From Saccharopolyspora erythraea NRRL 2338 (GTDB lineage: Bacteria > Actinomycetota > Actinomycetes > Mycobacteriales > Pseudonocardiaceae): DNA of 64,000 nt. Location: assembly GCF_000062885.1 (NCBI RefSeq), contig NC_009142.1, positions 4,391,584 through 4,455,583 of the forward strand. The letters run 5' to 3'. A program made the position numbers and the translations under genes. The first letter of the stretch is position 1. Each line of letters opens with the position of its first letter. Of this stretch, positions 5,026 to 45,542 are shown in pieces. Under the pieces are notes generated by a model. That model searched no databases. It was not told the DNA's origin and saw only the letters and a program-made list of their open reading frames with translations.

Positions 5026-5036
5026 CTCATACGCCG

Positions 5037-5065
5037 AACGGGCGGCCGCGTGGCGGCCGCCCGTT
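5037..5065. terminator. Bidirectional terminator hairpin
   Basis: A perfect 13-bp stem (AACGGGCGGCCGC with its complement) and a 3-nt loop lie exactly between the convergent PPTase and wrbA genes. It has no T-run, as is usual in actinomycetes. Confidence 0.8.
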
Positions 5066-5079
5066 CCGGGTTCCCGACC

Positions 5080-11315: not shown

Positions 11316-12234
11316 GTGCGGCTCCGTAGTCGACCGGTGCGGACAGCGCGGATTTCGGAATGAGCTCGTCCCAGTGCGCGTCACCGAGCTTGGCCAGGTA
11401 CTCGGAGTGGTCGGCGAGGTCGTGCACCCACTCGTCGAGCCACTGCCGCAACCGCTCCGGATCGCGGCTGATCTCCGGCCACGCGCGGTAGAAGGCGCCG
11501 TCGCGCTCGTAGTAGCCCTGCACGTAGGAGGGATGCGCACCGCGCGGGCACTCCACGACCGCGTCGACCACGAACTCCGGGATCAGCGTCCGGTTCGGGT
11601 CGGAACGGATCACCTCCGGCGCCACGACCTCCTCGACCACCACGACGACCTTGCGCGCGGCGAAGGCCACCTCCTGCTGACCGCCGAGCATGCCCCAGAC
11701 CTGGGTGTTGCCCGCCGCGTCGGCGCGCTGCGCGTGCAGGATCGCCACGTCCGGGTTCAACGGCGGGACCGCGTGCACCGTCGTCCCGTCGTCGAACGGC
11801 GAGCGGACGGTGCGGATGTTGGGGTTGACCCGCGGCAGGTCGCTGCCCGCGTAGGAGCGCAGCGGGTAGAACGGCAGCCCCTGCGCGCCCGCGAGGTAGC
11901 GGCCCAGGAGCCCGTAGTGGCTGTACTCCTCCAGCTCCAGCGGTTCGGGATCGGCGTGCTCGACGCGCCTGCGCAGCTCGTGCAGCGATCCGACGGCGCT
12001 GTTGCCGACGAAGGAGGAGACGAGCTTGCGGGCGACCCCGGCGGCCAGCATCTGGTCGAAGACGATGTCGGCGGTCATGCGCACCAGCGTCAGGTCCCGC
12101 CTGCCCTGCCGGATGATCTCGTGCCCGGCCGCCACCGGGATCAGGTGCGTGAAGCCCTCCAGGGCCACCACGTCACCGTCGCGCACGTGCGCCGAGACGG
12201 CCTCGCGCATCGTGGCGGTGCGGTCCTCGCCCAC
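11308..12234 (-). CDS. Family I CoA-transferase, subunit A
   Basis: A 308-residue alpha subunit, partner of the next gene. It shows the CoA-binding features of glutaconate-type alpha subunits: VRDGDVVALEGFTHLIPVAA, RRDLTLVRMTADIVFDQML, ARKLVSSFVGNSAVG, and the substrate-loop region LPFYPLRSYAGSDLPRVNPNI. I chose GTG 12234 because GGGAGG lies 8 bp upstream. The in-frame ATG at 12210 is an alternative. It is the first gene of a leftward operon divergent from a LysR gene, with a candidate operator between. A carboxylate such as a dicarboxylic acid would enter beta-oxidation here. Confidence 0.87.
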   Translation of the reverse strand: MGEDRTATMREAVSAHVRDGDVVALEGFTHLIPVAAGHEIIRQGRRDLTLVRMTADIVFDQMLAAGVARKLVSSFVGNSAVGSLHELRRRVEHADPEPLELEEYSHYGLLGRYLAGAQGLPFYPLRSYAGSDLPRVNPNIRTVRSPFDDGTTVHAVPPLNPDVAILHAQRADAAGNTQVWGMLGGQQEVAFAARKVVVVVEEVVAPEVIRSDPNRTLIPEFVVDAVVECPRGAHPSYVQGYYERDGAFYRAWPEISRDPERLRQWLDEWVHDLADHSEYLAKLGDAHWDELIPKSALSAPVDYGAARD

Positions 12235-12295
12235 CGTCGACCTCCCTCGGTTCGGGTGGATCCAACCAACCACGCCGCGGCGAGAGCGTCCAATA

Positions 12296-30438: not shown

Positions 30439-31086
30439 TTGTCCCAGCCGCTGTACACCAGCAAGACCGAACTGGTCACCAGCATGCTCCGGGAGATGAT
30501 CGTCACCGGTGAGCTGGCGGCGGGAACCACGCTGCGCCAGCGCGACCTGGCCGACCGGCTCGGCGTGAGCCCGACACCGGTCCGCGAGGCGCTGCGCAGG
30601 CTGGAGTCGGAGGGCCTGATCACCACCGACGCGCACCGCAGCGCCACGGTCGCCGAGTCGGCGTTCGACGCCAAGGAGGAGAACTACCTGATCCGCGCCG
30701 CGCTGGAGTCGCTGGCCGCGCAGCTGGCGGCCAAGCGGATCACCTCGGAGCGGCTGTCGGCGATCCAGTCGGTCAACGACCGGATCGCCGGGCTGGCCGA
30801 GGACGACCGCTCCTACGGCTCGCTCAACCGCGACTTCCACTTCGCCATCTACCAGGCCGCCGAGAGCCCGGTGCTGCTCTCGCTGATGCGGATGCTGTGG
30901 CAGTCGATGCCCGACGGACCCAAGGTCGTGCGCACCCACCGCGAGTCCGCCGAGGAGCACCAGGCGATCATCGACGCCCTGCGCGAGGGCGACAGCGCCC
31001 GGGCCGGAGAGCTCACCCGCGCGCACATCGTCGGCAGCACCCATCTGGAGGACGAGCGCCCGGCCAGGCGCGAGGGAGGCCGCTGA
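30439..31086 (+). CDS. GntR-family regulator with FCD domain
   Basis: A 215-residue regulator. The winged helix is LREMIVTGELAAGTTLRQRDLADRLGVSPTPVREALRRLESEGLI, followed by an all-helical FCD effector domain (ENYLIRAALESLAAQLAA, NRDFHFAIYQAAESPVLLSLM, EEHQAIIDALREGDSARAGELTRAHI) with the Asp/His metal-binding pattern of FadR-type proteins. It starts at TTG 30439, 4 bp after the amidase stop with GATGAGG just upstream. It probably represses the divergent catabolic operons through the palindrome at 27446-27469 and is released by a pathway acid. Confidence 0.92.
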   Translation: MSQPLYTSKTELVTSMLREMIVTGELAAGTTLRQRDLADRLGVSPTPVREALRRLESEGLITTDAHRSATVAESAFDAKEENYLIRAALESLAAQLAAKRITSERLSAIQSVNDRIAGLAEDDRSYGSLNRDFHFAIYQAAESPVLLSLMRMLWQSMPDGPKVVRTHRESAEEHQAIIDALREGDSARAGELTRAHIVGSTHLEDERPARREGGR

Positions 31087-31428: not shown

Positions 31429-34182
31429 ATGGAGCAGGAGTCACACCCGAAGTCGGCAGGTCAGGATGCCGGAGAGCTCCTGACCGGCAGGCCCGTCGCC
31501 GACCCGGGGCGCCCCGGACCCGCCCCCGTACTGTCCACACCGGACGCGAAGGATCTCGTTCCGCTGCTGCGCGACGCGCTCGGAGCCCGCGCGGACGCAC
31601 CGCGCTGGCACGTCGCCGAGGGAGAACCGTGGTGCACGGTTTCCCCGTCCGGCGCCCGGGAGGTGCTCCAGGGCTGGAAGCTGCACGTGTCGGCCACGAT
31701 GGGGACAGCGGGCGCGGTGTTGCAGCGGTGCCTGCCCGTTCTGCTCGACGCCGAGCGCCCTTTCAAGTTCGCGATCACGCTGGCCCACGTCTACGCGCTG
31801 AACTCCGGGCACGCGCCGCGCTACGGCGCGGGCAAGTTCCTGACCTGCTACCCGGAGGACGACGAGCAGGCGGTCGGGCTCGCCGAGGCACTGCATCTGG
31901 CGACCACGGGGCTGAGTGGTCCGGTGATCCTGTCGGACCGCCCGTACCGGCCGGGCAGCATCGTGCACTACCGCTACGGCTCGTTCGTCAACCGGCGCGT
32001 TCTCACCAACGACGGCCTGTACCGCCACATCATCGACAGCCCGACCGGAGAAACGGTGCCCGACCTCCGGGAGCCGCGGTACACGCCGCCGGAGTGGGTG
32101 CGATGCCCCTTCCCAGCCGCCGAAAGCGCGCCGTCCTCGGGCGCCAGGCGGATCCTGCTCGGTGACCGCTTCGCGGTGCGGGAGGCGATCCGGCACGCCA
32201 ACAAGGGCGGTCTCTACCGCGCTCAGGACCTGCGCACCGGAAAGCCGGTCGTGATCAAGGAGACCCGTCCGCACACCGTCGTCGGCTCGGACGGCACCTG
32301 CGCCCAGGACATGCTGCGGGCCGAGGCCCGCGCGCTGGAGGCGCTGGCACCGCTGGGCGTCGCCCCCGAGGTCGTCGAGTTCTTCGAACAGAGCGGGCAC
32401 CTGTACCTGGCCATGCGCGACCTCCAGGGGCCGCCCTTGCGGCGGTGGGTCACCGACCGGTTCCGGCAGCACGGGCCGCGCGGGTACCTGCCGGCCGCGC
32501 TGCGGCTGGCGGAACGGCTCGTGGACAAGCTGCGGGCGGTGCACGAGACCGGACTGGTGCTGCGGGACTTCACGCCGAACAACGTCATCGTCGTCGACGA
32601 CGAGCCGTGGCTGATCGACTTCGAGCTGTCGGTCCGCGCCGGGGAGACCACCGGCAGGCTCTCCGCGGGCACTCCCGGCTACGCCGCGCCGGAGCAGTTG
32701 CGCGGCGACGAGCCCCACCAGCTGGCGGACCGCTTCAGCCTCGGCGCGACGCTCGCCTACGTCCTCACCGGAGCCGACCCCCGCCTTCCCGAGGACGAGC
32801 CTGCGAGCCGGCCGCTGCGGGAGCGCCTGTCGGTGTGGCTGCCCACGGTGACGGCCACCGAGCTCCCGGACTCGGTGACCGCGCTGATCACCGCACTGAT
32901 GGACGACGAACCGGCCGACCGCCCCACTCCGTCGCACGCCCGGACGGTGCTCGCGGCGGCACCCGGCCTGGGGCACCGCTCCAGCGCGGTCGAACCCTTC
33001 GACGGCGACAAGTGGCAGCAAGCGGTCGACGGGATCGTCGGCCACCTGCTCGCGACGATGAACCCCGGCGATGACGACGCGCTCTGGCCGCTGGCGCGCC
33101 CGCTCCACGACCCGTGCAACGTCCAGCACGGCGCCGCCGGTGTTCTCGGCGCTCTGACCTCGTACTACCGGCTGCGCGGTGGCGACCGGGTCGCGGAGGC
33201 GATCGGCACGGCGGCCGACTGGATCCGCCGCCGCATGCGGCAGGACGCGTTCCGCCCGCCGGGGCTGCACTTCGGCCGGGCCGGCATCGCATGGGCCCTG
33301 CACGACGCCGCCGACGCGCTCCGCGACCACCCCGCCGCCGACGACGCGGTGGGACTGGCCAAGGAGCTGCCGACCAGCTGGCTCAGCCCCGACATCACCC
33401 ACGGGATGGCCGGGATCGGGCTCACCTACCTGCACTTCTGGCAGGTCACCGGCGACGCCGAGTTCGCCCACCGGGTCCGGCAGTGCGCCGAGGCGCTGCT
33501 GCGCTCGATGCGCCACGACTCCGACGGGCCGTTCTGGCAGGTGCCCGAGGACGCCGACTCCACCTTCGCCGGCCAGCGCTTCCACGGCTTCGCCCACGGC
33601 ACCGCGGGAATCGGCTACTTCCTGCTCGCGGCGGGCGAGCTCGGCGGAGCGGCGTGCGAGACGACCGCGGAGCAACTGGCACGGCCGCTGCTGCGACACG
33701 CCGTCGTGGACGACGCCGGGGCGCGTTGGCACGGCGGGCTGGACACGTCGGGACCGCTGCTGCCCCACTGGTGCAACGGCTCCTCCGGCATCGGGACGTT
33801 CCTGGTGCGGCTGGCCAGGCTCACCGGCGACACGCGCGCCAGGGACATGGCCGAGAAGGCGGCGTCCGCCACGGTCGACCACAGCCGGACCGGCGCCGTC
33901 GGCCAGTGCCACGGCCTGACCGGGAACGCGGAGTTCGTGCTCGACATGGCCGACTTCCTCGATGAACCCGCCTACGTCGCCACGGCGCACCGGATGGCGC
34001 ACGCCGTCTTCGGCCGCCGGGTCTACCGCGACGGGCGAACGGTGTTCACCGACCCGGAGGGGCACGTGTCGGCGGAGTGGGCCGACGGAGTCAGCGGTGT
34101 GCTGGCGTTCCTGCTGCGCCTGCGCTACGGCGGGTCGCGCCGGTGGATGGCCGACGCCGGCGGCTGGACCGGGCAGCGATGA
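31429..34182 (+). CDS. Lanthipeptide synthetase, class IV-like (LanL): lyase-kinase-cyclase
   Basis: A 917-residue three-domain enzyme. Residues about 60-250 form the phosphoSer/Thr lyase domain (GWKLHVSATMGTAGAVLQRC, FKFAITLAHVYALNSG, GAGKFLTCYPEDDEQA). Residues about 250-520 form a Ser/Thr kinase (VVIKETRPHT, catalytic Asp380 in LRDFTPNN, and DFE in place of DFG at Asp397). The C-terminal LanC-like cyclase has the three zinc ligands: Cys782 in HWCNGSSGIG and Cys827-His828 in GQCHGLTGN. Class III LanKC enzymes lack these, so class IV is favoured. I start at ATG 31429, preceded by GGGGAGGG; upstream in-frame ATGs at 31204 and 31396 are weaker. It phosphorylates, eliminates and cyclises Ser/Thr and Cys of the precursor at 36039. 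Confidence 0.93.
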   Translation: MEQESHPKSAGQDAGELLTGRPVADPGRPGPAPVLSTPDAKDLVPLLRDALGARADAPRWHVAEGEPWCTVSPSGAREVLQGWKLHVSATMGTAGAVLQRCLPVLLDAERPFKFAITLAHVYALNSGHAPRYGAGKFLTCYPEDDEQAVGLAEALHLATTGLSGPVILSDRPYRPGSIVHYRYGSFVNRRVLTNDGLYRHIIDSPTGETVPDLREPRYTPPEWVRCPFPAAESAPSSGARRILLGDRFAVREAIRHANKGGLYRAQDLRTGKPVVIKETRPHTVVGSDGTCAQDMLRAEARALEALAPLGVAPEVVEFFEQSGHLYLAMRDLQGPPLRRWVTDRFRQHGPRGYLPAALRLAERLVDKLRAVHETGLVLRDFTPNNVIVVDDEPWLIDFELSVRAGETTGRLSAGTPGYAAPEQLRGDEPHQLADRFSLGATLAYVLTGADPRLPEDEPASRPLRERLSVWLPTVTATELPDSVTALITALMDDEPADRPTPSHARTVLAAAPGLGHRSSAVEPFDGDKWQQAVDGIVGHLLATMNPGDDDALWPLARPLHDPCNVQHGAAGVLGALTSYYRLRGGDRVAEAIGTAADWIRRRMRQDAFRPPGLHFGRAGIAWALHDAADALRDHPAADDAVGLAKELPTSWLSPDITHGMAGIGLTYLHFWQVTGDAEFAHRVRQCAEALLRSMRHDSDGPFWQVPEDADSTFAGQRFHGFAHGTAGIGYFLLAAGELGGAACETTAEQLARPLLRHAVVDDAGARWHGGLDTSGPLLPHWCNGSSGIGTFLVRLARLTGDTRARDMAEKAASATVDHSRTGAVGQCHGLTGNAEFVLDMADFLDEPAYVATAHRMAHAVFGRRVYRDGRTVFTDPEGHVSAEWADGVSGVLAFLLRLRYGGSRRWMADAGGWTGQR

Positions 34183-35933
34183 GCGCGCCGAGCACGACCG
34201 CCGCCGGGAGCGCGGTGGTGCGGTCGAACTTCAGCTTCGCGCCCGGCGGGCGCCACGCGGCCTGCGTGCGGACGCGCGGCGCGGAGTCGGTGTTCGAGGT
34301 GTGGGGGTTCGACTCGGGCGTGGCGAGGCTGCTGCGCCAGGAGCCCGCCCCCCACCGCGGCGCCCAGGCGCAGCCGCTCGCCGACGGCCGGGTCCTGCTG
34401 TTCCCCAACTCGCCCGAGCAGCACGAGCTCGTGCTGCTCGATCCCGAGGGGGGTCGCCGGGTCCTCAAGCGCGTCCACGCGATCGCCGGGTACCTGCTGC
34501 CCCACCCCACGTCCTCCGCGCTCGGAGTGCTGGTCGCACGCGAGAGCGCCTGCCAGTCGGCGATCTGGCGGGTCACCGACGCCGGGGCCGAGCTCGTGCT
34601 GCGGCTGCCCGGTTGGGTGTCCGGCGGCGTGTGGCTGGACCCCAGGCTCGAGTTGCTGGGCGCCAACCTCACGACTGGCCAGGGACGGTGCGACGGCGTG
34701 CTGGTCGATCTGGGGCGGAGACGCTGGCGGACGATCCTGTCGCTGTCCCCGGAAAGCCGCGACAGCATCGTCGCTTGCCATCCGGGCAGCGGCCTTCTGG
34801 TGATCGAGACCAACGCGGGCGGCCACCACCGGCTCGGCTGGGCGCGGCTCGACGGCGCGAACGCGGTCCGCTTCCCGGAGCTGCTGGACGAGGACGGACT
34901 CCGCCACCGGGCGCTGGCGATCGACCCGCCGGGCAAGCGGGTGCTCGTGCAGAGGCAGCGCGGCGCGGTGACCACGCTGCACGTCTACACGCCGCAGGAC
35001 GACCAGTTGCGGCAGCTCGCCATCCCCACCGGGGTCACCCGAGGGCGGGCGCACTGGTCCACCGCCGCGATCCGGGTGCCGTTCTCCTCCCCCACCAAGC
35101 CGACGACGCTGCTGACGATCACCTCCTGCGAGGAGACGTCGTACCTGCCGGACGACGGCACGGGCGGTGAGTGGGTGGACGCCGAGCTCGTGCGGCTGAG
35201 CGCCGCGGCCGGCGGGGTCGAGGCGATCGTCTACGGCAGGGACTGGCTGCGGTCCGACCGGCTCGTGCTCGCGCTGCACGGCGGGCCGCTGTCGGCGTGG
35301 CGCATGCAGTTCGAGCCGCTGTTCCAGGCGCTGGCCTCCGCGGGGGTCGCGGTCGTGGCGCCGAACTACCGCGGCAGCACCGGCTACGGGCACGAGCACC
35401 TGAGCCCGGTGCTGGATTCCTGGGGCGGGCCCGACCTCGACGACGTGGTCGCCATCGGCGCCGACCTGGGCTCGCTGCGCGCCGACCTCCCGCGGCCGAT
35501 GGTCCTCGGCGTCAGCTACGGCGCGTTCCTCTCGCTGCTGGCTGCCAGCGCCGCACCGAAGCTGTGGTCGGCGTGCGTCGCGCTGGCGCCCCTGCTGTCC
35601 GGGGCACGCCTGCACTCCGCGAGCGCGCCCTGGGTCGGGCACCGCGCGATGCGGTTGGGAGCACTGTCCGGAATAGACGATCAGCTCGGTGCGCGCGACG
35701 TGTTGCGGCTGTGTCCGGAGATCTCGGTTCCGCTGCTGCTGATGCACGGCACCGATGACGACGTGATCCCCGTCGGCCAGTCCAGGGAGCTGCGCGACCG
35801 CTTGCTGGAGACCGGCCGCGCCGATCTGACTTACAAGGAGGTCCCCGGGAACCACCACGAGGTGGTGACCGGTGTGTCCGCGGTGGTGCGCAACACCGTG
35901 GCCCGCTTCTGCCGCACGTGGGGGCGCCCATGA
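34179..35933 (+). CDS. S9-family prolyl oligopeptidase-like protease (probable leader peptidase)
   Basis: A 584-residue serine peptidase. Residues up to about 340 form a beta-propeller; the rest is an alpha/beta hydrolase with the nucleophile Ser446 in LGVSYGAFLSL, the Asp in LMHGTDDDVIP and the His in PGNHHEV. It overlaps the synthetase gene by 4 bp (ATGA). Class III lanthipeptide clusters often carry such an enzyme (FlaP-type) that trims the leader after Pro. The precursor here has prolines in LPETEPV in its leader, so a processing role is a reasonable inference. It has no signal peptide, so it acts in the cytosol. Confidence 0.87.
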   Translation: MSAPSTTAAGSAVVRSNFSFAPGGRHAACVRTRGAESVFEVWGFDSGVARLLRQEPAPHRGAQAQPLADGRVLLFPNSPEQHELVLLDPEGGRRVLKRVHAIAGYLLPHPTSSALGVLVARESACQSAIWRVTDAGAELVLRLPGWVSGGVWLDPRLELLGANLTTGQGRCDGVLVDLGRRRWRTILSLSPESRDSIVACHPGSGLLVIETNAGGHHRLGWARLDGANAVRFPELLDEDGLRHRALAIDPPGKRVLVQRQRGAVTTLHVYTPQDDQLRQLAIPTGVTRGRAHWSTAAIRVPFSSPTKPTTLLTITSCEETSYLPDDGTGGEWVDAELVRLSAAAGGVEAIVYGRDWLRSDRLVLALHGGPLSAWRMQFEPLFQALASAGVAVVAPNYRGSTGYGHEHLSPVLDSWGGPDLDDVVAIGADLGSLRADLPRPMVLGVSYGAFLSLLAASAAPKLWSACVALAPLLSGARLHSASAPWVGHRAMRLGALSGIDDQLGARDVLRLCPEISVPLLLMHGTDDDVIPVGQSRELRDRLLETGRADLTYKEVPGNHHEVVTGVSAVVRNTVARFCRTWGRP

Positions 35934-36038
35934 CGTGCAGGCGGATCGGGTGCGTTCCGGCTCGGGGCCCGCCCCCAGGCCGGTGGTGGTGACCGACCAC
36001 CAAACGCGGTTCCGGCTAGAAATCCCAGGAGGTAAGTC

Positions 36039-36194
36039 ATGTACGAAGAATTCGAGCTCGACGTGACCGCTCTGCAGCAGCTTCCGGAAACCGAGCCGGT
36101 CGACCAGGACGGCGTGCAGTTCGGCGGAGGCGGCGGCGACCAGTGCCTACTGCTGAGCAACTGCCTCGCCCTCACCCTCGTCAACGAGGACTGA
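36039..36194 (+). CDS. Lanthipeptide precursor peptide
   Basis: A 51-residue peptide with a perfect AGGAGGT ribosome-binding site 5 bp before the ATG. The leader is acidic and helical (MYEEFELDVTALQQLPETEP) and matches the class IV venezuelin leader around LPETDPVGVDGAPF; here LPETEPVDQDGVQF. A five-glycine stretch follows, then a short core with Cys36, Ser40, Cys42 and Thr46 (DQCLLLSNCLALTLVNED). Only one Ser and one Thr are available for dehydration, and only Ser40 has a Cys on its C-terminal side (Cys42). It lies between the protease and transporter genes. Too short for usual gene finders, but leader, RBS and context make it convincing. Confidence 0.88.
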   Translation: MYEEFELDVTALQQLPETEPVDQDGVQFGGGGGDQCLLLSNCLALTLVNED

Positions 36195-36274
36195 TCCAAG
36201 ACATCCGCTGCTGGGCGGAAGTGGTCGCGCGCGCGGCCACTTCCGCCCGCTCGTTCGTACCAGGGAGGAGTCGG

Positions 36275-38035
36275 ATGTCAGACGTCGCCATGGCGCCGCC
36301 GCGACGGCGCGGCTTCGCGCGCTTCCTGCCGCTTGAGCGCGCCGAGGGCGAGAACGCCGCTGCCGGGCGCGCGCTGCTCGCCGAGTGCCTCCGCGAGTGT
36401 CCGCTGTGGAGTTCGGTGCTGGTTCCCGCGGTCATCGCCAGGACCGCCGCCGCGCTGCTGCTGCCCGCCGCCGTCGCTGAGGGCATCGACGCCGCGGTGA
36501 GCGGGGCGGGTGTGGCGACCGCGGTCGTCCACGTCGGTGTCGTCCTGACCGTGCTCAGCGCCGCCGAGGCCGCGATGGAACTGGCGAACGCCTACTACAA
36601 GGCCGCGGTCACCGCCGACCTGCGCAACCGCTTCATCCGCCACGTCCTGGCGCTCGGTGTCGCGGGCCGCCGCCGCTTCGCCTCCGGCGACCTGCTCTCC
36701 CGCCTGACCACCGACACCGCCAAGCCCGCCGGTTTCCTGCTCGTGCTGCTCAACATCGCGGTAGGACTGCTCACCCTGGCCGGTTGCGCGGTGGCGCTGT
36801 GGATCATCGACTGGACGCTCGCGCTGACGCTGCTGGTGGGAATCCCGGTCGCCTTCGGAATGGTCCGGTTGTTCGTGTCGCGGACGGCCAAGCACTTCCT
36901 GCGCTACCAGCAGATCCAGGCCGACATCGTCGCGCGGTTCCTCGACGCCCTGCGCGGCGCCCGCACGATCCGCGCCAACGGCAACCCGCAGCGCGACGCG
37001 GCGCGCGTGCTGCGCCCGCTGGGCGAGCTCAACATCACCGGACGCGCGGTGTGGAAAGCCCAGGGGCAGATCGGTTGGCAACTGCTGCTGCTCATCTCGC
37101 TGCTGCAGATCGCGGTGCTGTGCGTCGGCGGATTCGCCCTGACGGCGGAGCGGATCACGGCGGGCGAGTTCGTCGCATCGGCGGGCTACGTGCTGCTGGC
37201 GGTCCACGGCTTCGAAGCCGTGGAGAGCATCGTGATGGTGCTGAAGTCCCATATCGGTGCGACGCGGGTGGCCACCGTGCTCTCCACCCCCGCCCGGGAG
37301 CCGGGTTCGCCGGTGGTGCCCGACATCGGGGCCGGTCGGCTCGACCTGCGCGGGGTCACGGTGCGCGATGGCGACCGGGTCGTGCTCGACAACGTCTACC
37401 TGCGGATTCCGGCAGGCAGCAACGTCGCCGCGGTCGGCAGGTCCGGATCCGGCAAGTCGGTGCTGGCCGCGGTCGCCGGACGGCTGGTGCACCCCAGTGG
37501 CGGCAGCGTGACCTTCGACGGCGTCGCCTTCGCCGAGCTCTCGGAGTCGGCGCTGCGGGCGTCGGTGGCCTACGCCTTCGAGAAACCCGCGCTGCTGGGC
37601 CGCACCATCCACGACGCCATCGCCTACGGGCGCCCCGGAGCCTCCCGCGCCGAGGTCGAGCGGGCCGCGCGGATCGCGCGGGCCGACCACTTCGTGCGCA
37701 AGCTCCCCGCCGGCTACGACACCCCCGTGCGGGAGGCGCGGTTCTCCGGCGGAGAGGTCCAGCGCCTCGGCCTGGCTCGGGCGGTGCTGGTCGACGCGCG
37801 GCTGGTGATCCTCGACGACGCCACCAGCTCGCTCGACGCGGCCACCGAGGTCCAGGTCGCGCACGCCTTCGACCGCGTGCTGGCCGGGCGCACGTGCCTG
37901 CTGGTCGCGCACCGCGCGTCCACGGCCGCGCGCGCCGACCTGGTGGCATGGCTGGACGAAGGGCGCGTCAGGGGCTTCGCCCCGCACGCGCAGTTGTGGT
38001 CCGACCCCGCCTACCGGGAGGTGTTCGGTGGCTGA
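36275..38035 (+). CDS. ABC transporter half, permease-ATPase fusion (LanT1)
   Basis: A 586-residue exporter half with six membrane segments then an ATPase. It has Walker A AVGRSGSGKSVLAAV, signature RFSGGEVQRLGLARAV, Walker B LVILDDATSSLD, and H-loop LLVAHRAST. The residue after the Walker B Asp is Asp, not Glu, and the Q-loop position reads AYAFEKPALLG with Glu for Gln, so this ATP site is probably degenerate. There is no N-terminal peptidase domain, in line with a separate protease. I start at ATG 36275 with GGGAGGAG upstream. It pairs with the next gene, which overlaps it by 8 bp, to export the lanthipeptide. Confidence 0.9.
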   Translation: MSDVAMAPPRRRGFARFLPLERAEGENAAAGRALLAECLRECPLWSSVLVPAVIARTAAALLLPAAVAEGIDAAVSGAGVATAVVHVGVVLTVLSAAEAAMELANAYYKAAVTADLRNRFIRHVLALGVAGRRRFASGDLLSRLTTDTAKPAGFLLVLLNIAVGLLTLAGCAVALWIIDWTLALTLLVGIPVAFGMVRLFVSRTAKHFLRYQQIQADIVARFLDALRGARTIRANGNPQRDAARVLRPLGELNITGRAVWKAQGQIGWQLLLLISLLQIAVLCVGGFALTAERITAGEFVASAGYVLLAVHGFEAVESIVMVLKSHIGATRVATVLSTPAREPGSPVVPDIGAGRLDLRGVTVRDGDRVVLDNVYLRIPAGSNVAAVGRSGSGKSVLAAVAGRLVHPSGGSVTFDGVAFAELSESALRASVAYAFEKPALLGRTIHDAIAYGRPGASRAEVERAARIARADHFVRKLPAGYDTPVREARFSGGEVQRLGLARAVLVDARLVILDDATSSLDAATEVQVAHAFDRVLAGRTCLLVAHRASTAARADLVAWLDEGRVRGFAPHAQLWSDPAYREVFGG

Positions 38036-39821
38036 ACCGAGCAGTGTCCAGGCCGGGTACGAGCTGTTGCGCAAGCGGCTGCGCGCCAACCGGTACGCGA
38101 TGAGGAAGCTGATCACCTGGTCGGCGCTGGAAGCCGCGCCTCCGCTGGTCTCCGGCCTGCTGGTGGCGGCGGCCATCGACCGCGGGTTCCTCGCGGGCCG
38201 TCCGGACCTGGGCCTGGTGTGGCTGTCGGCCCTCGCCGCGGTGCACTGCCTGGCGGCGGTGGCGACCCGGCGGGTGTACCCGTGGCTGGCCGAGATCGTC
38301 GAACCGCTGCGGGACTACCTGGTCACCGCCCTGGTCACGGCGACCGTGCGCCGCGCGGTGGCCCAGCTCGAACCGCTGGACGGCGCGAGCGTGGCGCAGG
38401 CGACCGACCAGGTCGACAGCGTGCGCAACCTGGCGGCGTCGGTCCTGCGCAACGCCCGCCAGTTCCTCACCGCACTGGTCGCCGTGGCCGGGCTGGCGTT
38501 GCTGTCCCCGCTGATCGCAGCCGTCGTCGCGCCGATGGTGGCGCTCGCCGTGCTGGGGTTCCTGCGGGTGTTGCGGACGCTGGTCGCCAGGCAGCGCGAG
38601 GTCGTGCTCACCGGTGAGCTGGTCACCCGCGAGGCCGAACCGGTCATCGACGCGATCCGCGACGTCGTCGCATGCGGCGCGCAGGGCCGGGCCGCCACGT
38701 CGGTGGCCGCCGCGGTCCACCAGAACGCGCGGGCGGCCCGTGCGTATGCGCTGACCCGGGTCGCCCGGGTGCTGGTCCTGGCGGTCGGCGTGCACCTGCC
38801 GCTGTTGACGCTCCTGCTGCTGTCGCCGTGGCTGGTCGCACGCGGTTCGGCCACCGCGGGCGTCGTCGCAGGCGCGGTCGTGTACCTGGCGCACCAGCTC
38901 GACCCGGCCATGCGGTTCCTGGTGAACGCGGGCAGCACGTGGCTGGTGGCGCTGGGCGTCGCGCTGGGGCGGCTGGCCGAGGTCACCCGGCGCGACCCCG
39001 TCCACCCGGAGACCGGCGGGGCGCTGCCGGTCCTGGCTCGCGACATCCGCGTCGAGGGCCTGCGGTTCGCCTACTCGCCCCACGCCGCCCCGGTCGTCGA
39101 CGGCGTGGACTTCACCATCGCGCACGGCACTCACCTGGCGGTGGTAGGACCCAGCGGTGTCGGCAAGTCCACCCTGGCCGACCTGATCACCGGCATCACG
39201 CGCCCGCAGGGCGGCCGGGTGCTGCTGGGCGGTGTCGACATCGCCGAGGTGGCCGACGTGGTCCTGCGGCGCGAGATCGCACTCATCCCGCAGGAGGCCT
39301 ACGTCTTCGCCGGCACGGTCCGGGACAACCTGACCGTGCTCAACCCGGACGCGACGCGGGAGGAAATGGAGCTTGCAGCGCACGCGGTCGGGGCCACCGC
39401 GCTGATCGACCGGCTCGGCGGCTGGGACGCCGAGATCAGACCGGGCGCCGACGCGCTGTCGGCAGGCGAGCGCCAGCTCATCGCGCTGACGCGGGTGTGG
39501 TTGTCGCCGGCACGCGTCGTCGTACTCGACGAGGCGACCTGCCACCTGGACCCCGAGGCCGAGGCGAGGGCCGAGGCCGCCTTCCAGCGCCGCGGCGGGA
39601 CGCTGATCGTGCTCGCGCACCGCATCAGCTCGGCGATGAGGGCGCAGCGGATCATGGTGATGGACGGCGAGACCGCCGTCGTCGGCACGCACGAGGAGCT
39701 CCTGGAAACAAGCACGCTCTACGCGGACCTGGTCGGGTACTGGCGCGGCGCGACCGTACCGGCTCCCCGCAACGAATCGTCCACACCGGACGGAACAGCG
39801 GCAGGCGCGGTACGTCCCTGA
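38028..39821 (+). CDS. ABC transporter half, permease-ATPase fusion (LanT2)
   Basis: A 597-residue partner of the previous gene. Six membrane segments are followed by an ATPase with Walker A VVGPSGVGKSTLADL, Q-loop IALIPQEAYVFAGTVRDN, signature DALSAGERQLIALTRV, Walker B VVVLDEATCHLD, and H-loop LIVLAHRISSA. Unlike its partner it has the catalytic Glu and the Q-loop Gln. The GTG start lies inside the upstream gene, with GGGAGG just before, so translation is coupled. Together they look like a heterodimeric exporter with one weak and one competent ATP site, as in RamAB-type systems. Confidence 0.9.
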   Translation: MAEPSSVQAGYELLRKRLRANRYAMRKLITWSALEAAPPLVSGLLVAAAIDRGFLAGRPDLGLVWLSALAAVHCLAAVATRRVYPWLAEIVEPLRDYLVTALVTATVRRAVAQLEPLDGASVAQATDQVDSVRNLAASVLRNARQFLTALVAVAGLALLSPLIAAVVAPMVALAVLGFLRVLRTLVARQREVVLTGELVTREAEPVIDAIRDVVACGAQGRAATSVAAAVHQNARAARAYALTRVARVLVLAVGVHLPLLTLLLLSPWLVARGSATAGVVAGAVVYLAHQLDPAMRFLVNAGSTWLVALGVALGRLAEVTRRDPVHPETGGALPVLARDIRVEGLRFAYSPHAAPVVDGVDFTIAHGTHLAVVGPSGVGKSTLADLITGITRPQGGRVLLGGVDIAEVADVVLRREIALIPQEAYVFAGTVRDNLTVLNPDATREEMELAAHAVGATALIDRLGGWDAEIRPGADALSAGERQLIALTRVWLSPARVVVLDEATCHLDPEAEARAEAAFQRRGGTLIVLAHRISSAMRAQRIMVMDGETAVVGTHEELLETSTLYADLVGYWRGATVPAPRNESSTPDGTAAGAVRP

Positions 39822-39936
39822 GGATTTGTTCTCGGCCGTTGAATCCGCGCAGGCACTTGGCCCATGACCACAATTGCTGCGGGCCTGAGTTCCTGTCCTT
39901 GATCTTAGCCCACCCCAACCGGCACCGCCGCGGGTT

Positions 39937-40024
39937 CTCAGGCGTCCTCTGGCGAGGACAGCGTTTCGCGGCGTATAGGTAGGCATACGTGAGAAAAAGA
40001 TCCTGGAGCCGGAGGACGCCTGAG
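39937..40024. repeat. 13-bp inverted repeat enclosing 62 bp; terminator or small insertion
   Basis: CTCAGGCGTCCTC at 39937-39949 and its exact complement at 40012-40024 enclose 62 bp of lower-GC DNA with an inner CGTAT / ATACG dyad. The left arm can also pair with GAGGAC at 39954-39959 to form a tight hairpin. It lies between the end of the transporter gene and the end of the leftward frameshifted gene, so it may be a bidirectional terminator or a tiny inserted element. Confidence 0.5.
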
Positions 40025-40079
40025 GTTTCCGCCACCAGCACCGCCACGCAAAGTGAACTCAGGGAAGCCTTCGAGATTC

Positions 40080-40431
40080 CTACGCTCGGAGGTTGGGCTG
40101 ATCTATCACCCACAGAGCTCCCGTCGGGCTGGCGCCTGGCGACCTCCGCGGTCGTCACTCCGCGCGCCAGCTTGGTCGCGGTGAGGGCGATTTCCCCGTT
40201 GCGCAGCACGGGAAGCGGCTCGCCCGGCGTGAACACCGGCCGGTCGACGAGGAGCTGTTCGTAGACCTCCCTGATCTGTTCGCTGCCCCGCACCACCTGG
40301 CCCGGCCGGAACGCCAGCACCGCGTCCGGCTCGTAGAGCTCCACGAGGCCTTCCACGTCACCGGCGTTGGCGCGTTCCACGAACAGCCGCGCGAGGTCTT
40401 CGGGGCGGGCGGCGCGTTCCCGCTCGATCAT
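40080..40431 (-). pseudogene. NTF2-like (SnoaL/nuclear transport factor 2 fold) protein, frameshifted
   Basis: From ATG 40431 the frame reads MIERERAARPEDLARLFVER, then ANAGDVEGLVELYEPDAVLA and LTATKLARGVTTAEVARRQPDG, a typical 120-residue NTF2-like domain of the ketosteroid isomerase-like group. It then leaves the family frame. Moving one base gives ALWVIDQPNLRA and a stop at 40080-40082, which matches the family ending (xWxWVIDQPN). A shift of one inserted or two deleted bases near 40111-40119 explains this. Without it the frame runs on into the antisense of the ABC gene. It may be a pseudogene or a sequencing error. Its role is unknown; relatives often occur as small stand-alone enzymes. 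Confidence 0.75.
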
Positions 40432-40469
40432 GCCGATCGCCCCCGCGTGCCTGTGCCGGGCGAGGGCGG

Positions 40470-40516
40470 CGTTCGGCGGAGGGCCGGACCTGCCTGGCCG
40501 GGCCCTCCGCCGAACG
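40470..40516 (-). terminator. Terminator hairpin after the GlsB-like gene
   Basis: A perfect 16-bp inverted repeat (CGTTCGGCGGAGGGCC at 40470-40485 and its complement at 40501-40516) with a 15-nt loop. On the minus strand it follows the small membrane protein gene ending at 40567 and precedes the NTF2-like gene. Confidence 0.75.
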
Positions 40517-40566
40517 ATTCCGGTGAACGCGGTCGCATCAGCTCGCACGTTCGCTGGTCCGGGGGG

Positions 40567-40827
40567 CTACGCCCGCGCCCGGTGGAAGATCAGCCGGTAG
40601 ATGATGAGCAGGATCAGCGATCCGACGACCGCCCACACGAAGCTCATCACGTTGAAGCCCGACACACCTCCGCCGCTCACGGCCGATCCCAGCCAGCCGC
40701 CGAGCAGTCCGCCGAGCACACCGATGATGATCGTCACGATGATCCCGCCCGGATCCTTTCCCGGCATGATGAACTTGGCGATCGCGCCGGCGATCAGCCC
40801 GAAAACAATCCAACTCAGGATGCCCAC
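40567..40827 (-). CDS. GlsB/YeaQ/YmgE-family small membrane protein
   Basis: An 86-residue protein of the transglycosylase-associated family with three hydrophobic segments: ILSWIVFGLIAGAIAKFIMPG, GGIIVTIIIGVLGGLLGGWLG and SFVWAVVGSLILLIIYRLI. The Gly-rich helices and the KDPGG turn are typical. The family is widespread and tied to general stress, with no known biochemical role. The GTG start at 40827 has GAAGGGAG upstream; a longer ATG start at 40893 is rejected. Confidence 0.9.
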   Translation of the reverse strand: MGILSWIVFGLIAGAIAKFIMPGKDPGGIIVTIIIGVLGGLLGGWLGSAVSGGGVSGFNVMSFVWAVVGSLILLIIYRLIFHRARA

Positions 40828-41089
40828 CGGATTGCTCCCTTCGGCCTCGAAATCCCTCTTGGCCCATGGGTGCCCTCCGACGGGCGCAATCACACATTCC
40901 CCTCACGACGCCGTCCCCCGCGAACCCGATCCGGCGCCCGAGCCGGGCTCCCGGCGTAACCGAACCAGTAGCGTGACCAGCGGCGATGCCGGAGTGCACC
41001 GCTCGGGCCGCTGCCACGGCGGGGCGGAGATCACACTCGCGGCGGCGTTGGGAACACCCGGTCGACCACCGCGCGGCGCCGGTCCGCGG

Positions 41090-42103
41090 TCACGGCTTGC
41101 GCGGCTTGGCGGTCACCAGCGCGGCGTCCAGCGGCAGCGGGCGTACCGGTCCGAGTTCGAAGCCGGCCTTCTCCAGCAGCACCCGGTACTCCTGCTCGCC
41201 GCGCTCGCGGCCGTTGCCCATCACCGCCAGCATGTGCAGGTTGTAGCCCAGCGCCAGGGACGGTTCGGTCCCCTCCGGGAGCACGCGCTCGACGATCAGC
41301 AGCGTGGCGTCCTCGCCCATCGCCTCCCGGCAGCTCGCCAGGATGCGCACGCACGCCTCGTCGTCGAAGCCGTGCAGGATCCGCGAGAGCAGGTAGACGT
41401 CGCCGCCCCGCGGGACCGAGTCGAAGAAGTCGCCCGCAACCAGCTCCACCCGCTCGTCGGCTGCGACACCGCCCGCCCGGCGGACCTCCTCGATGACGTG
41501 CGGCGCGTCGTAGAGCACGCCGCGCAGCGTGGGGTGGGCGCGCAGGACCTCGGCCAGCAGTTGGCCGTGCCCGCCCGCGACGTCGACGACCTTGCGCGCC
41601 GCGGAGAAGTCGAACGCACCGGGCACGTCGGAGAAGAACGCCGTGCCCGCGACCATGGCCCGGTCGTAGGACAGCGAGGTCCGCGGGTTGCCGCTGAGGT
41701 AGGCGAACAGCTCGTCGCCGAAGACGTGGCCGAACGCCGACTTCCCGGTCGTCACCGAGTGGTGCAGGTCGCCCCACGCGCGGTAGAACTCCTCGCCGTA
41801 GAGCAGCGCGACGTTGCGCAGCGGCTTGTCCGCGTCCGAGCGCAGCAACTCGCCGGTCTCGGTCAGCGCATAGCCCTGCTGGTCGTCGCCCACCAGCACA
41901 CCGGCGCCGACCAGGAAGCGCAGCAGGCGGCCCAGGGCGTCGGCGTCCACGTCGAGCTCGGTGGCCAGGGCCGCGCTCGTGGACCGGGTGCCCGCCAGCC
42001 GGTCGGCGATGCCGAGCCGGGCGGCGACGTAGACCGCCTGGGTGTTCCAGTAGCCGGTCATCAGCTCCATCAGCCGGCGTGCCGGGTCGACGGTGTTGGG
42101 CAT
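41090..42103 (-). CDS. SAM-dependent O-methyltransferase (plant-type family 2)
   Basis: A 337-residue small-molecule O-methyltransferase. The N-terminal dimerisation/winged-helix domain (LMTGYWNTQAVYVAARLGIADRLAG, DADALGRLLRFLVGAGVLV) precedes a Rossmann domain with the SAM motif KVVDVAGGHGQLLAEVLR, then DVYLLSRILHGFDDEA where the His is the likely catalytic base. ATG 42103 has AAGGAG 8 bp upstream. It lies 112 bp downstream of the PabC-like gene, same strand. Members methylate phenols in antibiotic pathways, so a hydroxylated aminobenzoate product is a fitting acceptor here. That substrate is inferred. Confidence 0.88.
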   Translation of the reverse strand: MPNTVDPARRLMELMTGYWNTQAVYVAARLGIADRLAGTRSTSAALATELDVDADALGRLLRFLVGAGVLVGDDQQGYALTETGELLRSDADKPLRNVALLYGEEFYRAWGDLHHSVTTGKSAFGHVFGDELFAYLSGNPRTSLSYDRAMVAGTAFFSDVPGAFDFSAARKVVDVAGGHGQLLAEVLRAHPTLRGVLYDAPHVIEEVRRAGGVAADERVELVAGDFFDSVPRGGDVYLLSRILHGFDDEACVRILASCREAMGEDATLLIVERVLPEGTEPSLALGYNLHMLAVMGNGRERGEQEYRVLLEKAGFELGPVRPLPLDAALVTAKPRKP

Positions 42104-42156
42104 GGCATGTCTCCTTGTCGAGGTGTTGGTTCCCCGGACGCGGGGCCCATCCGGAT

Positions 42157-42202
42157 CCCGTGAGTCCGTTGGGTTGCTATGACGACCCGAAAGGCTCACG
42201 GG
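42157..42202 (-). terminator. Intercistronic stem-loop between pabC-like and methyltransferase genes
   Basis: CCCGTGAG at 42157-42164 pairs with CTCACGGG at 42195-42202, with room for an inner GGGT/ACCC pairing. It may reduce read-through to the methyltransferase gene or separate two transcripts. Confidence 0.4.
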
Positions 42203-42215
42203 TCGGTTCGGGAGT

Positions 42216-43013
42216 TCAGAGCGCGAGCGGCTCGGCGAGGGCGGACAGCCACTCGCTCCATTCACCGGCTCGCGAAGGAGGTCCAGGCTCGACCGCGGTA
42301 CCGACCCACGAGACGACCGGCCTGATGCCGTGCAGCGCGTTGACGAACCACGCTTCGCGCCCGGCGAGCCCGGACAGGTCGCACTCGCGGTACTCGATCG
42401 GCACGCCCAGGTCGGCGGCGCGGTCGACGACGAGTCCCGCGGTGACGCTGTCGAGCACGGGAAGCGACGGCGACGGCAGGCAGAGCACGTCGTCCTCCCA
42501 CCACAGCAGCGCCGAGGTCGCGCCCTCCACCACGGTTCCCGCGGCGGTGGTCAGCAGCGCCTCGTCGGCACCCGCGTCGACGGCGCGAGCGCGTGCACGG
42601 CCCAGCCACGGCAGGTCCGGACCCTTCGTGCGCGGCGCGCGTCGCTCGTCGGGACCGTCCAGCGGCCATACCCGGATCCGCGTGCCGAGCGGCGGTGCGG
42701 GACGGACGCGCAGCCGAAGGCTCGGCTCCGGTCCCGCGGTGACCAGCTCAACCCGGGGGAACCAGTCGCCCTGGCGCGGTAGCGCCGCCACGACGGCGTG
42801 CCAGAACTCGCCGAACTCCTCCGGCCCCACGTGCTCGGCGAACGCCGTGCCGAAGCGCGCGCGGTGCCGGTCCAGCGCCCGCACCCGGCCGCTGGTCACC
42901 AGCCAGGAGTCAGCGGCCCGCATCGGAGCGTCCTCGACGGGCCCGGCGAGCAGTCCTTCCCGCCGGTCCCACACGTAGGACTCGGCGGCGGGTTTCGGAA
43001 CCGAGCAGCCCAC
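42216..43013 (-). CDS. Class IV aminotransferase-fold enzyme, probable aminodeoxychorismate lyase
   Basis: A 265-residue PLP enzyme of fold type IV. It has LLTTAAGTVVEGATSALLWWEDD (the family's E-x-x-x-SN-like block, here EGATSA), LPVLDSVTAGLVVDRAADLG, and AWFVNALHGIRPVVSW. The PLP lysine is most likely that in APRTKGPDLPWLGRARA. PabC splits aminodeoxychorismate to p-aminobenzoate and pyruvate; the fused PabAB at 47448 would supply its substrate. GTG 43013 is favoured, with GGGAAGG upstream, overlapping the previous stop region; ATG 43031 is an alternative. Could also be a D-amino acid or branched-chain enzyme, but context supports PabC. Confidence 0.82.
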   Translation of the reverse strand: MGCSVPKPAAESYVWDRREGLLAGPVEDAPMRAADSWLVTSGRVRALDRHRARFGTAFAEHVGPEEFGEFWHAVVAALPRQGDWFPRVELVTAGPEPSLRLRVRPAPPLGTRIRVWPLDGPDERRAPRTKGPDLPWLGRARARAVDAGADEALLTTAAGTVVEGATSALLWWEDDVLCLPSPSLPVLDSVTAGLVVDRAADLGVPIEYRECDLSGLAGREAWFVNALHGIRPVVSWVGTAVEPGPPSRAGEWSEWLSALAEPLAL

Positions 43014-43014
43014 G

Positions 43015-44241
43015 TCAGTACCTTCCCGCATGCGGTCTGGGCGTCTTCGGCCCGTAGGTCGCCTGCTCCAGCCATTCGCCGAACGCCGGGACCACCGGTG
43101 AGAGCGCGGCGGCGGCGCGCTGGCGCAGCCGGGTGATGCGGCGCCTCGGCCGCAGGTGGGCCAGTGCCGTGCCCGCGGCGTCGCGGTTCGCCTCCGCCGC
43201 GGCGCGGCGCGTGGCGTCGAACCGCTCGACCGCCGCCCCGGCCTGCCGCGGGTCGGCCGCCGACAGCGCGAGCGCGATGGCGTTCGCCGCGGCGTCGGCG
43301 TCGGCGATGCCGCTGTTCATCCCGCGCGCGCCCAGCGGCGGGAACAGGTGCGCGGCCTCCCCCGCCAGCAGCACCCGGCGCGAGTCGTCGGCGAACGACT
43401 CGGCGACGACCTGCAGGAACCGGTAGTTCGCCACGCAGGTGACCGAGTCGACGTACTTGCGCGGCACCACCCGCGGCAGCCAGTCGCGCACCGCCTCCTC
43501 GGTGGCGAACTCCTCCGGACGGTCGCCGTCGGCGGACTGCACGTCGATCTGGAACCCGCCCGCGAAGGGCACGCGCATCACGTGCCGCCAGCCCAGGCCC
43601 GGGTGCTCGTAGTGGAAGGTCCGCTCCAGCGGCATCGGGTCGTCGGGGTCCTCGGCGATGTCGACGGTGGTGTGGAAACCCTCCGAGCGGGGGCCGTTCA
43701 TCGCGATGCCCAGCGACCGCCGGACCGTGGACCGGCTGCCGTCGGCGGCCACGACGTAGCAGGCGCGGTGGGTCGCACCGTCCTCAGTGGTCAGCAGCAC
43801 CTCGTCCGGTCCCGCCTCGACCGCGGTGACCCGCGCACCCCAGACGAAGTCCGCGCCCGCGACCTTCGCCGCCTCCAGCAGGAAGCGCTCGGTGTCGAGC
43901 TGGCGCAGGCTGGTGAACGGCGGGATGCGGCCCGGCGGCAGCTCCGGGTAGGTCCTGGCGTAGACCTCCCGGCCGCCGAGCAGGGTCCGCTTGGTCCGCC
44001 ACATGACACCGAAGCCGGCGATCGCCGGAGCCAGGCCGGGACTGGCGCGGTCGAGCAGCGCCAGGGACTCGCGGTGGACGAACAGGGCGCGGCTGCCCGG
44101 CCGGACCCGGTTGGCGGGGTCGGCCTCGAGGACGGTGACCTCCAGTCCGCAGGACCGCAGCGCGAGCGCCGCCGACAGCCCGACCGGGCCCGCCCCGACG
44201 ACGATGACGTCTTTCCGGGAGTTGGTGTTCCGCGCGCTCAC
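43015..44241 (-). CDS. Class A FAD-dependent aromatic monooxygenase
   Basis: A 408-residue flavoprotein hydroxylase. The N-terminal dinucleotide fold is DVIVVGAGPVGLSAALALRSCGLEVTVLE, the mid-motif is CYVVAADGSRSTVRRSLG (DG region), and the C-terminal FAD motif is VLLAGEAAHLFPPLGARGMNSGIADA, with Glu for the more common Asp in GD. It lacks the thioredoxin-like third domain of phenol hydroxylases. GTG 44241 overlaps the MFS stop (GTGA). In the p-aminobenzoate region it is probably the second ring hydroxylase or an oxidative decarboxylase, inferred from context. Confidence 0.88.
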   Translation of the reverse strand: MSARNTNSRKDVIVVGAGPVGLSAALALRSCGLEVTVLEADPANRVRPGSRALFVHRESLALLDRASPGLAPAIAGFGVMWRTKRTLLGGREVYARTYPELPPGRIPPFTSLRQLDTERFLLEAAKVAGADFVWGARVTAVEAGPDEVLLTTEDGATHRACYVVAADGSRSTVRRSLGIAMNGPRSEGFHTTVDIAEDPDDPMPLERTFHYEHPGLGWRHVMRVPFAGGFQIDVQSADGDRPEEFATEEAVRDWLPRVVPRKYVDSVTCVANYRFLQVVAESFADDSRRVLLAGEAAHLFPPLGARGMNSGIADADAAANAIALALSAADPRQAGAAVERFDATRRAAAEANRDAAGTALAHLRPRRRITRLRQRAAAALSPVVPAFGEWLEQATYGPKTPRPHAGRY

Positions 44242-45542
44242 GGCGTCTGCGCTCCTTCGCGTTCGGCTTGTCCCCGACCACGGCCCGCCAGTCCTCCGGC
44301 TACCGCGACCAGCACCGCTCCGGCTACCTGGACGGCGCCGAGGACCACCAGCACCGCGGTGAAGCCGGCGTCCCTGATCACGGCGACCAGTTGCGGTCCG
44401 ACGCTGGCGCCCACCAGCAGGGCGAAGGTGTAGAGCGCCACGGCCGCGCCACGCGCGGGTGCGCCCAGTTCGCTCACCAGCTGCGTCAGCCCTGGTGAGA
44501 CCACCATGATGGCGGTGACGAACACCAGCATCAACACGCCCACGACCAGCACCGAGTCCCCGGCGGCGGTCAGCGCGAGGGTCGCGGCCGCTCCCGCGGC
44601 CAGTGCCAGGCCCGCCCGGTGGGTGGCGCGGTAGCGGTTGAGCAGCGGCGCCGCCAGCGGGATCGCCACCATCGCCGGGAACGCGCTGAGCCGCAGCGCG
44701 AGCATCGCGCCGTCGCTGCGCACCAGCACGGGCGGGCCGAGCAGCTGGAGCGCTACGTAGAGGCCGGCGAAGCTGCTGAGCACCGACAGCGCCGCCAGGC
44801 ACACCAGCGCCAGTTGCGGGCGCACGACCAGCCGGGCCATGACCCGGAACGGGGTGAGCAGCGAGCCGCCCGGCTGGGGTGCGTCGGGGAGCATCACGAT
44901 CCGCAGCAGCACGACCACCACCGCGATCGCCGCCGCGCTGACCGCGAAGAAGCCCTGCCACCCGCTCACCTCCAGCAAGGCCTGCGCGCTGACCTGGCCG
45001 GTGATCGCCGCCGCGGTGAACGAGGTGACCAGGCACGACAGCGCGACCGGGCGGTGGCGCGGGGCCAGCCGCTCGGTCAGGTAGGCCAGCGCGGCGGGCG
45101 AGAACCCGGCGGCGCAAAGCCCCTGCACCACTCGCAGCGTTCCGCCCGCGGCGAGCGAGGGCGCGAACGCGATCGCCAGGGTCGTCACCGCCATCGCGGT
45201 CAGCCCGGTGACGACCACGCGGCGCCTGCCGAAGCGGTCCGACAGCGGGCCGGTGAGCAGGAAGCCGACGGCGTAGGCGATGCCGAACAGGCTGGAGGTC
45301 GCGGTCATCTCGGCGTGGGTGCCGCCCCAGTCCCGCGCCATCGCGGGCAGCAGCGGAATCACCGCGTAGAGCTGGCCGACGACCAGCAGGCCGGTGACCG
45401 TCATCAGGGTGATCGTGGTGCCCGCCGGGGCCCACCGGACCGGCTCGCCGCCGGTTCGCGCGGGCGCGGTGGCGCGGTTCTGGTTCTGCCGGGGGCCGGT
45501 CTCTCCCTGCTGGGGCATGGGAGTTCCTGTCGTGCCGGTCAT
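44238..45542 (-). CDS. MFS exporter (drug/H+ antiporter-like)
   Basis: A 434-residue, 12-helix major facilitator of the YnfM/AraJ-like drug exporter group. It has VVGQLYAVIPLLPAMARDWG in helix 1, GFLLTGPLSDRFGRRRVVVTGL as the helix 2-3 loop, and RVVQGLCAAGFSPAALAYLTERLAPRHRPVAL in helices 4-5. It overlaps both neighbours by 4 bp. In a biosynthetic operon it is most likely the product exporter and self-resistance pump. Confidence 0.88.
   Translation of the reverse strand: MTGTTGTPMPQQGETGPRQNQNRATAPARTGGEPVRWAPAGTTITLMTVTGLLVVGQLYAVIPLLPAMARDWGGTHAEMTATSSLFGIAYAVGFLLTGPLSDRFGRRRVVVTGLTAMAVTTLAIAFAPSLAAGGTLRVVQGLCAAGFSPAALAYLTERLAPRHRPVALSCLVTSFTAAAITGQVSAQALLEVSGWQGFFAVSAAAIAVVVVLLRIVMLPDAPQPGGSLLTPFRVMARLVVRPQLALVCLAALSVLSSFAGLYVALQLLGPPVLVRSDGAMLALRLSAFPAMVAIPLAAPLLNRYRATHRAGLALAAGAAATLALTAAGDSVLVVGVLMLVFVTAIMVVSPGLTQLVSELGAPARGAAVALYTFALLVGASVGPQLVAVIRDAGFTAVLVVLGAVQVAGAVLVAVAGGLAGRGRGQAEREGAQTP

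Follow-up and report, generated by a model that had tools for sequence, protein, structure and literature searches.

We propose that a 51-residue precursor encoded in the genome of Saccharopolyspora erythraea NRRL 2338 yields a class IV lanthipeptide of the VenA family with a reduced core, which is fairly likely to be closed into two tandem, non-overlapping rings of five residues each, both with the cysteine first. On this best reading, the product would have a mass shift of -36 Da and no free thiol. The gene genuinely encodes a class IV precursor, and its family is already listed; its core is unlike the rest of the family examined.

The precursor and its operon

The window, that is the whole stretch of DNA analysed (64,000 nucleotides), holds the following elements around the precursor gene:

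31429-34182, + strand: LanL class IV lanthionine synthetase with RamC_N lyase region, kinase and LanC cyclase (NF038150, PF25816, PF00069, PF05147)
34179-35933, + strand: S9 (prolyl-oligopeptidase type) peptidase (PF00326, E=8.3e-23)
36027-36032, + strand: AGGAGG ribosome-binding site, six bases 5' of the precursor ATG, kept in the ortholog
36039-36194, + strand: VenA-family class IV precursor (LanA), 51 aa (NF038147, 54.3 bits, cut-off 35; NF038157 ALQxL, 24.3 bits, cut-off 19)
36039-36137, + strand: precursor leader, residues 1-33, with LPETEPV, DGVQF and then five Gly (alignment)
36138-36191, + strand: precursor core, residues 34-51, DQCLLLSNCLALTLVNED (ortholog comparison; venezuelin topology)
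36144-36158 and 36162-36176, + strand: predicted rings Cys36-Ser40 and Cys42-Thr46 (putative pairing)
36213-36248, + strand: 16-pair hairpin between the precursor and exporter genes (folding energy -45.4 kcal/mol, z -3.67; equalled by 0 of 200 shuffles)
36275-38035, + strand: ABC exporter 1 (PF00005, PF00664; start read from the sequence)
38028-39821, + strand: ABC exporter 2, overlapping exporter 1 (PF00005)

The 51 codons at 36039-36194 (+) translate as MYEEFELDVTALQQLPETEPVDQDGVQFGGGGGDQCLLLSNCLALTLVNED. The original prediction had placed this gene, with its ribosome-binding site, between a leader-type protease and two exporters, and the AGGAGG site, the S9 peptidase and two ABC genes were indeed found, in the order LanL, S9 peptidase, precursor, ABC, ABC. 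The LanL start at 31429 was picked for its GGGGAGG site, in a frame that is open from 31204; the LanL and S9 peptidase genes overlap by ATGA. The peptidase contains the stretches GVSYG, HGTDDDVIP and HHE, which would fit a Ser-Asp-His triad, and it is the likely leader protease. We infer the leader/core border after residue 33 and regard Pro16 and Pro20 of the leader as candidate cleavage points. The genes thus offer what POP-type processing calls for, an S9 peptidase in the cluster and prolines at 16 and 20 in the leader; FlaP is the precedent for such processing of class III/IV precursors in the accessible text of PMC10885120.

The stem of the hairpin is kept in the ortholog sequence, in which a single T to C substitution replaces a U-G pair with C-G. 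It is not called a terminator because it lacks a T run, and it perhaps sets the ratio of precursor to exporter. A search for promoter and terminator consensus sequences gave no match. A GntR/FCD-type regulator is encoded upstream of the LanL operon (30439-31086, +). Neighbouring frames of the minus strand (39655-45435, -) encode a SnoaL-like domain, an O-methyltransferase, a class IV aminotransferase and an FAD-binding monooxygenase type, and look like a separate small-molecule cluster.

Class and family assignment

The venezuelin-type class IV leader that had been predicted is borne out by the NCBIfam model of the VenA family, NF038147, which the precursor passes with E=1.2e-14; the ortholog described below reaches 52.5 bits. 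The LanL protein passes the class IV model NF038150 (1000.5 bits, cut-off 650) and stays under the cut-off of the class III (LanKC) model (498.4 bits versus 575). Its zinc-ligand motifs are present, WCNG with Cys782 and CHG with Cys827 and His828; a scan for the CHG motif is an imperfect test, given that the other LanL of the genome, over the cut-off, shows WCQG and no CHG. Class IV membership is also indicated by the position of the precursor beside the synthetase, in the same operon. The SflA family model NF038148 did not match the precursor at E up to 0.1, and the class III core motif SxxSx(2-5)C (given in the accessible text of PMC11251773), the labionin motif, is absent from its core. Equally absent, from both the precursor and its ortholog, is the eight-residue four-ring core TCxC...T...TxC...SC. 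Judged from leader and model, the precursor is a member of the VenA family whose predicted product is not venezuelin-like.

Since both NF038147 and NF038150 are passed, this kind of system is already catalogued. The description of the precursor as unlisted could therefore hold for the annotation of the record only, the family itself being in NCBIfam. A published count of lanthipeptide clusters in Saccharopolyspora assigns 17 of 58 to class IV (accessible part of PMC11162802), and the cluster described here is probably itself in such published lists. A search of open full texts for two core segments found no paper containing them, and among the open papers listed for class IV, LanL, venezuelin or lanthipeptide combined with the species, no title or abstract opening describes the peptide.

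A better precursor elsewhere in the genome was sought and none emerged: there is no second VenA match at E up to 0.001, and the other LanL has a peptide of its own. This second LanL over the cut-off (754 bits, G000:C1:5158594-5161080) stands beside an SflA-family peptide (26.8 bits, cut-off 25). At its locus (L066:13263-13433, -; L067:13136-13306, -) the SflA-family precursor has 56 residues with five Cys, and the protein is identical in both species. The third locus has the following precursor:

L068:8997-9137, + strand: class III precursor of the SapB/AmfS family, with a LanKC-like synthetase and ABC genes alongside

We take this peptide to be, probably, erythreapeptin. The SflA-family peptide and the SapB/AmfS peptide at the class III-type locus were considered as better precursors and rejected, each adjoining its own synthetase. 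With VenA, SflA and SapB/AmfS peptides at three loci, each of the three lanthipeptide synthetases of the genome has its own precursor nearby.

Relatives of the precursor

The precursor is present in both genomes examined from the genus. Across the family, 6 of 390 genomes score over the NF038147 cut-off and two more (G058, G246) match below it. A draw across the phylum gave a VenA-family match in one of 396 genomes, the source genome itself, and a second genus (that of G319) gave 46 matches in 45 of 392 genomes. Profile searches favour complete cores, a bias to bear in mind; a scan of genome contigs with a leader motif matched 59 stretches, with 17 loci confirmed. A single-protein LanL scan of genome contigs found nothing, nor did searches of plasmid and viral contigs. 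The 22 distinct precursors compared come from the window, from related genomes of the family and from the 17 loci of the scan, a set that omits L064 as coming from the same genome as L071.

The eight ring residues of venezuelin are kept in 66 of the 68 VenA-family records (the 22 distinct precursors plus the 46 matches of the second genus). In a scripted comparison of the distinct precursors the eight-residue pattern fits 20; the present gene and the G012 ortholog, with four residues each, are the exceptions. A looser pattern, the four residues of the two small rings, fits all 22, and all 46 matches of the second genus fit both patterns. The core is thus as unusual as it had been said to be, and its composition is as first described: Ser40 and Thr46 are the only dehydratable residues, and positions 36 and 42 hold the only cysteines.

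Gene order is conserved across the group. The arrangement LanL-S9-precursor-ABC-ABC was found in 20 of 22 related loci (19 genomes); L079 and L088 gave no LanL match, the DNA examined starting inside the operon. The frame is no chance one, given the NF038147 match and its conservation in the same operon of the related species. Distant clusters carry a precursor with the same leader at the same position, but with a four-ring core. Some clusters of the family hold more than one precursor, with three VenA-family precursors in tandem in Planosporangium thailandense (L069, about 4460-5140) and two at L063 (G013, 11783-12239).

The core in a second species

The ortholog in G012, the only other species of the genus examined, lies in the same operon and reads MYDEFELDVTALQQLPETDPIDQDGVQFGGGDQCLLASNCLLASLLIDD. 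The operon proteins of the two species are highly similar (LanL 93%, S9 peptidase 97%, ABC proteins 94 and 95% identity). All four ring residues recur in the core of the ortholog, DQCLLASNCLLASLLIDD, which holds the exact repeat CLLAS-N-CLLAS; codons differ in three of the five pairs between the two halves, so that the repeat did not arise by recent copying of DNA.

The core has changed fast. It differs at 16 of 54 bases versus 148 of 2751 in LanL (binomial 1.5e-8); the leader differs at 4 of 93 bases, a two-codon gap set aside, and the flanking DNA at 1 of 80 bases downstream and 5 of 24 upstream. Cys36, Ser40, Cys42 and Ser/Thr46 persist between the two species despite this fast change, and Ser40 is specified by AGC in the one species and by TCG in the other, two codons that differ at every position. 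Statistically this conservation is weak, the six class-changing replacements missing the four sites with a hypergeometric probability of 0.16 in a comparison of two species. Silent divergence is raised as well (dS 0.33 in the core versus 0.12 in LanL), so that some of the difference may stem from local recombination. Compared with L062, the core at 36138-36191 is a divergence hot spot, silent sites included, with nearly identical flanks, for which diversifying selection or cassette replacement are suggested as alternatives.

A fast-changing core without four of the eight ring residues kept in nearly all family records might be read as a degraded precursor that is losing its ring residues and has no defined product. 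This we consider highly improbable, in view of the open frame, the ribosome site, the leader and the operon proteins, all of them conserved (LanL dN 0.034, dS 0.12), and of the persistence of the four ring residues in two species.

Ring topology

According to the accessible text of PMC11251773, the majority of known lanthipeptide bridges link a Ser/Thr to a Cys that follows it at a distance of three or more residues. In venezuelin, the accessible text of PMC2843593 gives the rings as Cys34-Dhb39, Cys45-Dha49, Cys32-Dhb43 and Dhb31-Cys50; three of the four thus close from Cys to a downstream Ser/Thr. This topology was derived from tandem MS of mutants, and the authors asked for confirmation by NMR (PMC2843593). 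The original prediction had held that a Cys before Ser/Thr is unlike known class III/IV products, a view that these three rings contradict, and the puzzle of a Cys36 preceding both dehydratable residues mostly dissolves with them.

The alignment pairs the C-terminal Cys-xxx-Ser of the family with Cys42-xxx-Thr46 at identical spacing. Cys42-Thr46 matches venezuelin Cys45-Ser49 in spacing and place; once this ring had formed, Cys36 and Dha40 would be the only pair left for a second. At the first small ring, two relatives have a Cys-xxx-Ser/Thr arrangement (CVVLS in L065, CDWVT in L083), a likeness of spacing only. The residues of the L106 peptide fit the venezuelin ring numbering. MAFFT pairs Ser40 with Thr43 of venezuelin, not with Thr39, which makes descent of a Cys36-Ser40 ring from venezuelin Cys34-Dhb39 uncertain as judged from the alignment; for the same reason we no longer take as proof the argument that the surviving residues are exactly those of two complete venezuelin rings.

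Ser40 and Cys42 are the only Ser/Thr-before-Cys pair in the core, and a minimal forward ring between them, with Dhb46 unbridged and Cys36 either a free thiol or part of an intermolecular disulfide, would have the direction common to most known bridges, a rule that is stated, however, for residues three or more apart (PMC11251773). The same T-x-C spacing exists in venezuelin (Thr43-Val-Cys45) and goes unused there according to the accessible text of PMC2843593, and such a ring gives no joint role to Cys36 and Ser/Thr46, both of which persist in a fast-changing core; we regard it as unlikely. The small ring could also lie nested inside a large reversed Cys36-Thr46 ring. All four residues would then be used, and in venezuelin the large reversed Cys32-Dhb43 ring likewise encloses a smaller one (accessible text of PMC2843593). 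Nesting still requires an SxC ring, which is without counterpart in venezuelin, and does not predict the CLLAS-N-CLLAS repeat, so that there is little probability for this arrangement either. Finally, the two cysteines, six apart, could pair as a Cys36-Cys42 disulfide beside dehydro residues, with partial or no cyclization. The LanL protein retains the zinc ligands Cys782, Cys827 and His828, which points to a cyclase being present, and the conserved Ser and Ser/Thr would not be needed; this outcome appears very improbable. The reversed ring, one of the options first named, therefore finds the best support, twice over, and the SxC ring and the free dehydro residue with a disulfide come out weaker.

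According to the reading with two Cys-first rings, LanL would bind the leader and phosphorylate and eliminate Ser40 and Thr46 to Dha40 and Dhb46. Its zinc cyclase would then add Cys36 to Dha40 and Cys42 to Dhb46, giving two five-residue rings, each with Cys at its N-terminal end and with Asn41 as the link between them. Cleavage of the leader by the S9 peptidase would probably follow Pro20 or Pro16; aminopeptidases would remove the stretch of glycines, and export of the Leu-rich, acidic-tailed peptide would fall to the two ABC proteins. The monoisotopic masses calculated for two dehydrations are 5476.53 for the entire precursor, 3113.44 for the part after Pro20, 2225.05 for the part from Gly29 and 1939.94 for the part from Asp34.

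The synthetase itself differs from its relatives beside a zinc-ligand Cys. Residue 783 (numbered from 31429) is Asn in both two-ring LanLs and His in the 18 others aligned. As a control, 36 of 238 columns invariant in the 18 LanLs are changed in the two-ring pair, and for the cyclase region the figure is 13 of 93; these 36 lineage-specific changes weaken the idea of His-to-Asn 783 as an enzyme change matched to the core, and we keep it as a lead only. In its widest form, for which we see an even chance, our proposal is that a LanL lineage has left the near-frozen venezuelin core for a product made up solely of two tandem reversed rings of five residues, whose interior evolves fast; it would be the simplest substrate that nature offers for backward closure, and the change at 783 would go with the switch.

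Comparison with known class IV products

Venezuelin (VenA/VenL) of Streptomyces venezuelae shares with this system a LanL enzyme, the leader LPET(D/E)PV..DG at the same residue numbers (compared with L106) and the C-terminal Cys-xxx-Ser/Thr, whose ring in venezuelin runs from Cys to the residue downstream of it. It differs in its four interlocked rings from eight residues, whereas the four residues of the present core allow no more than two rings; only the present precursor has five glycines ahead of its core and an acidic tail. The accessible text of PMC2843593 describes the venezuelin cluster without a protease gene, in contrast to the S9 peptidase of this operon.

Few-ring class IV products are already known. 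SflA has two separate, non-overlapping thioether rings, like our predicted product, in the accessible part of a review (PMC8358304); its leader family, NF038148, is a different one, and the likeness concerns the rings irrespective of their directions. Similarly low in rings are two class IV products, from Chondromyces crocatus Cm c5 and from Streptomyces sp. DvalAA-43; the accessible text of PMC9576775 gives a single methyllanthionine for one and two rings with three dehydrations for the other. The erythreapeptin-type L068 peptide resembles our precursor in its Leu-rich stretches between Ser and Cys and its nearby exporters, but belongs to the SapB/AmfS family, has Ser before Cys and is accompanied by a synthetase that showed no WCxG and CHG motifs in the scan.

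A Leu-rich ring pair with an acidic tail suggests surface activity, and our guess is that a surface-active or developmental peptide is likelier than an antibiotic. For the annotation of the family, the precursor illustrates that, when a model depends mainly on the leader, quite different products can be grouped under a single name.

To our knowledge, it is still open what makes a lanthionine close in one direction or the other. The interlocked rings of venezuelin are a hard place to study it. In a two-ring core each ring can be judged alone, and the natural variant in a second species, together with the four-ring LanL relatives, would let direction be tested by swaps of core and enzyme. If the proposed topology is true, this precursor would provide a natural, simple case of backward ring closure.
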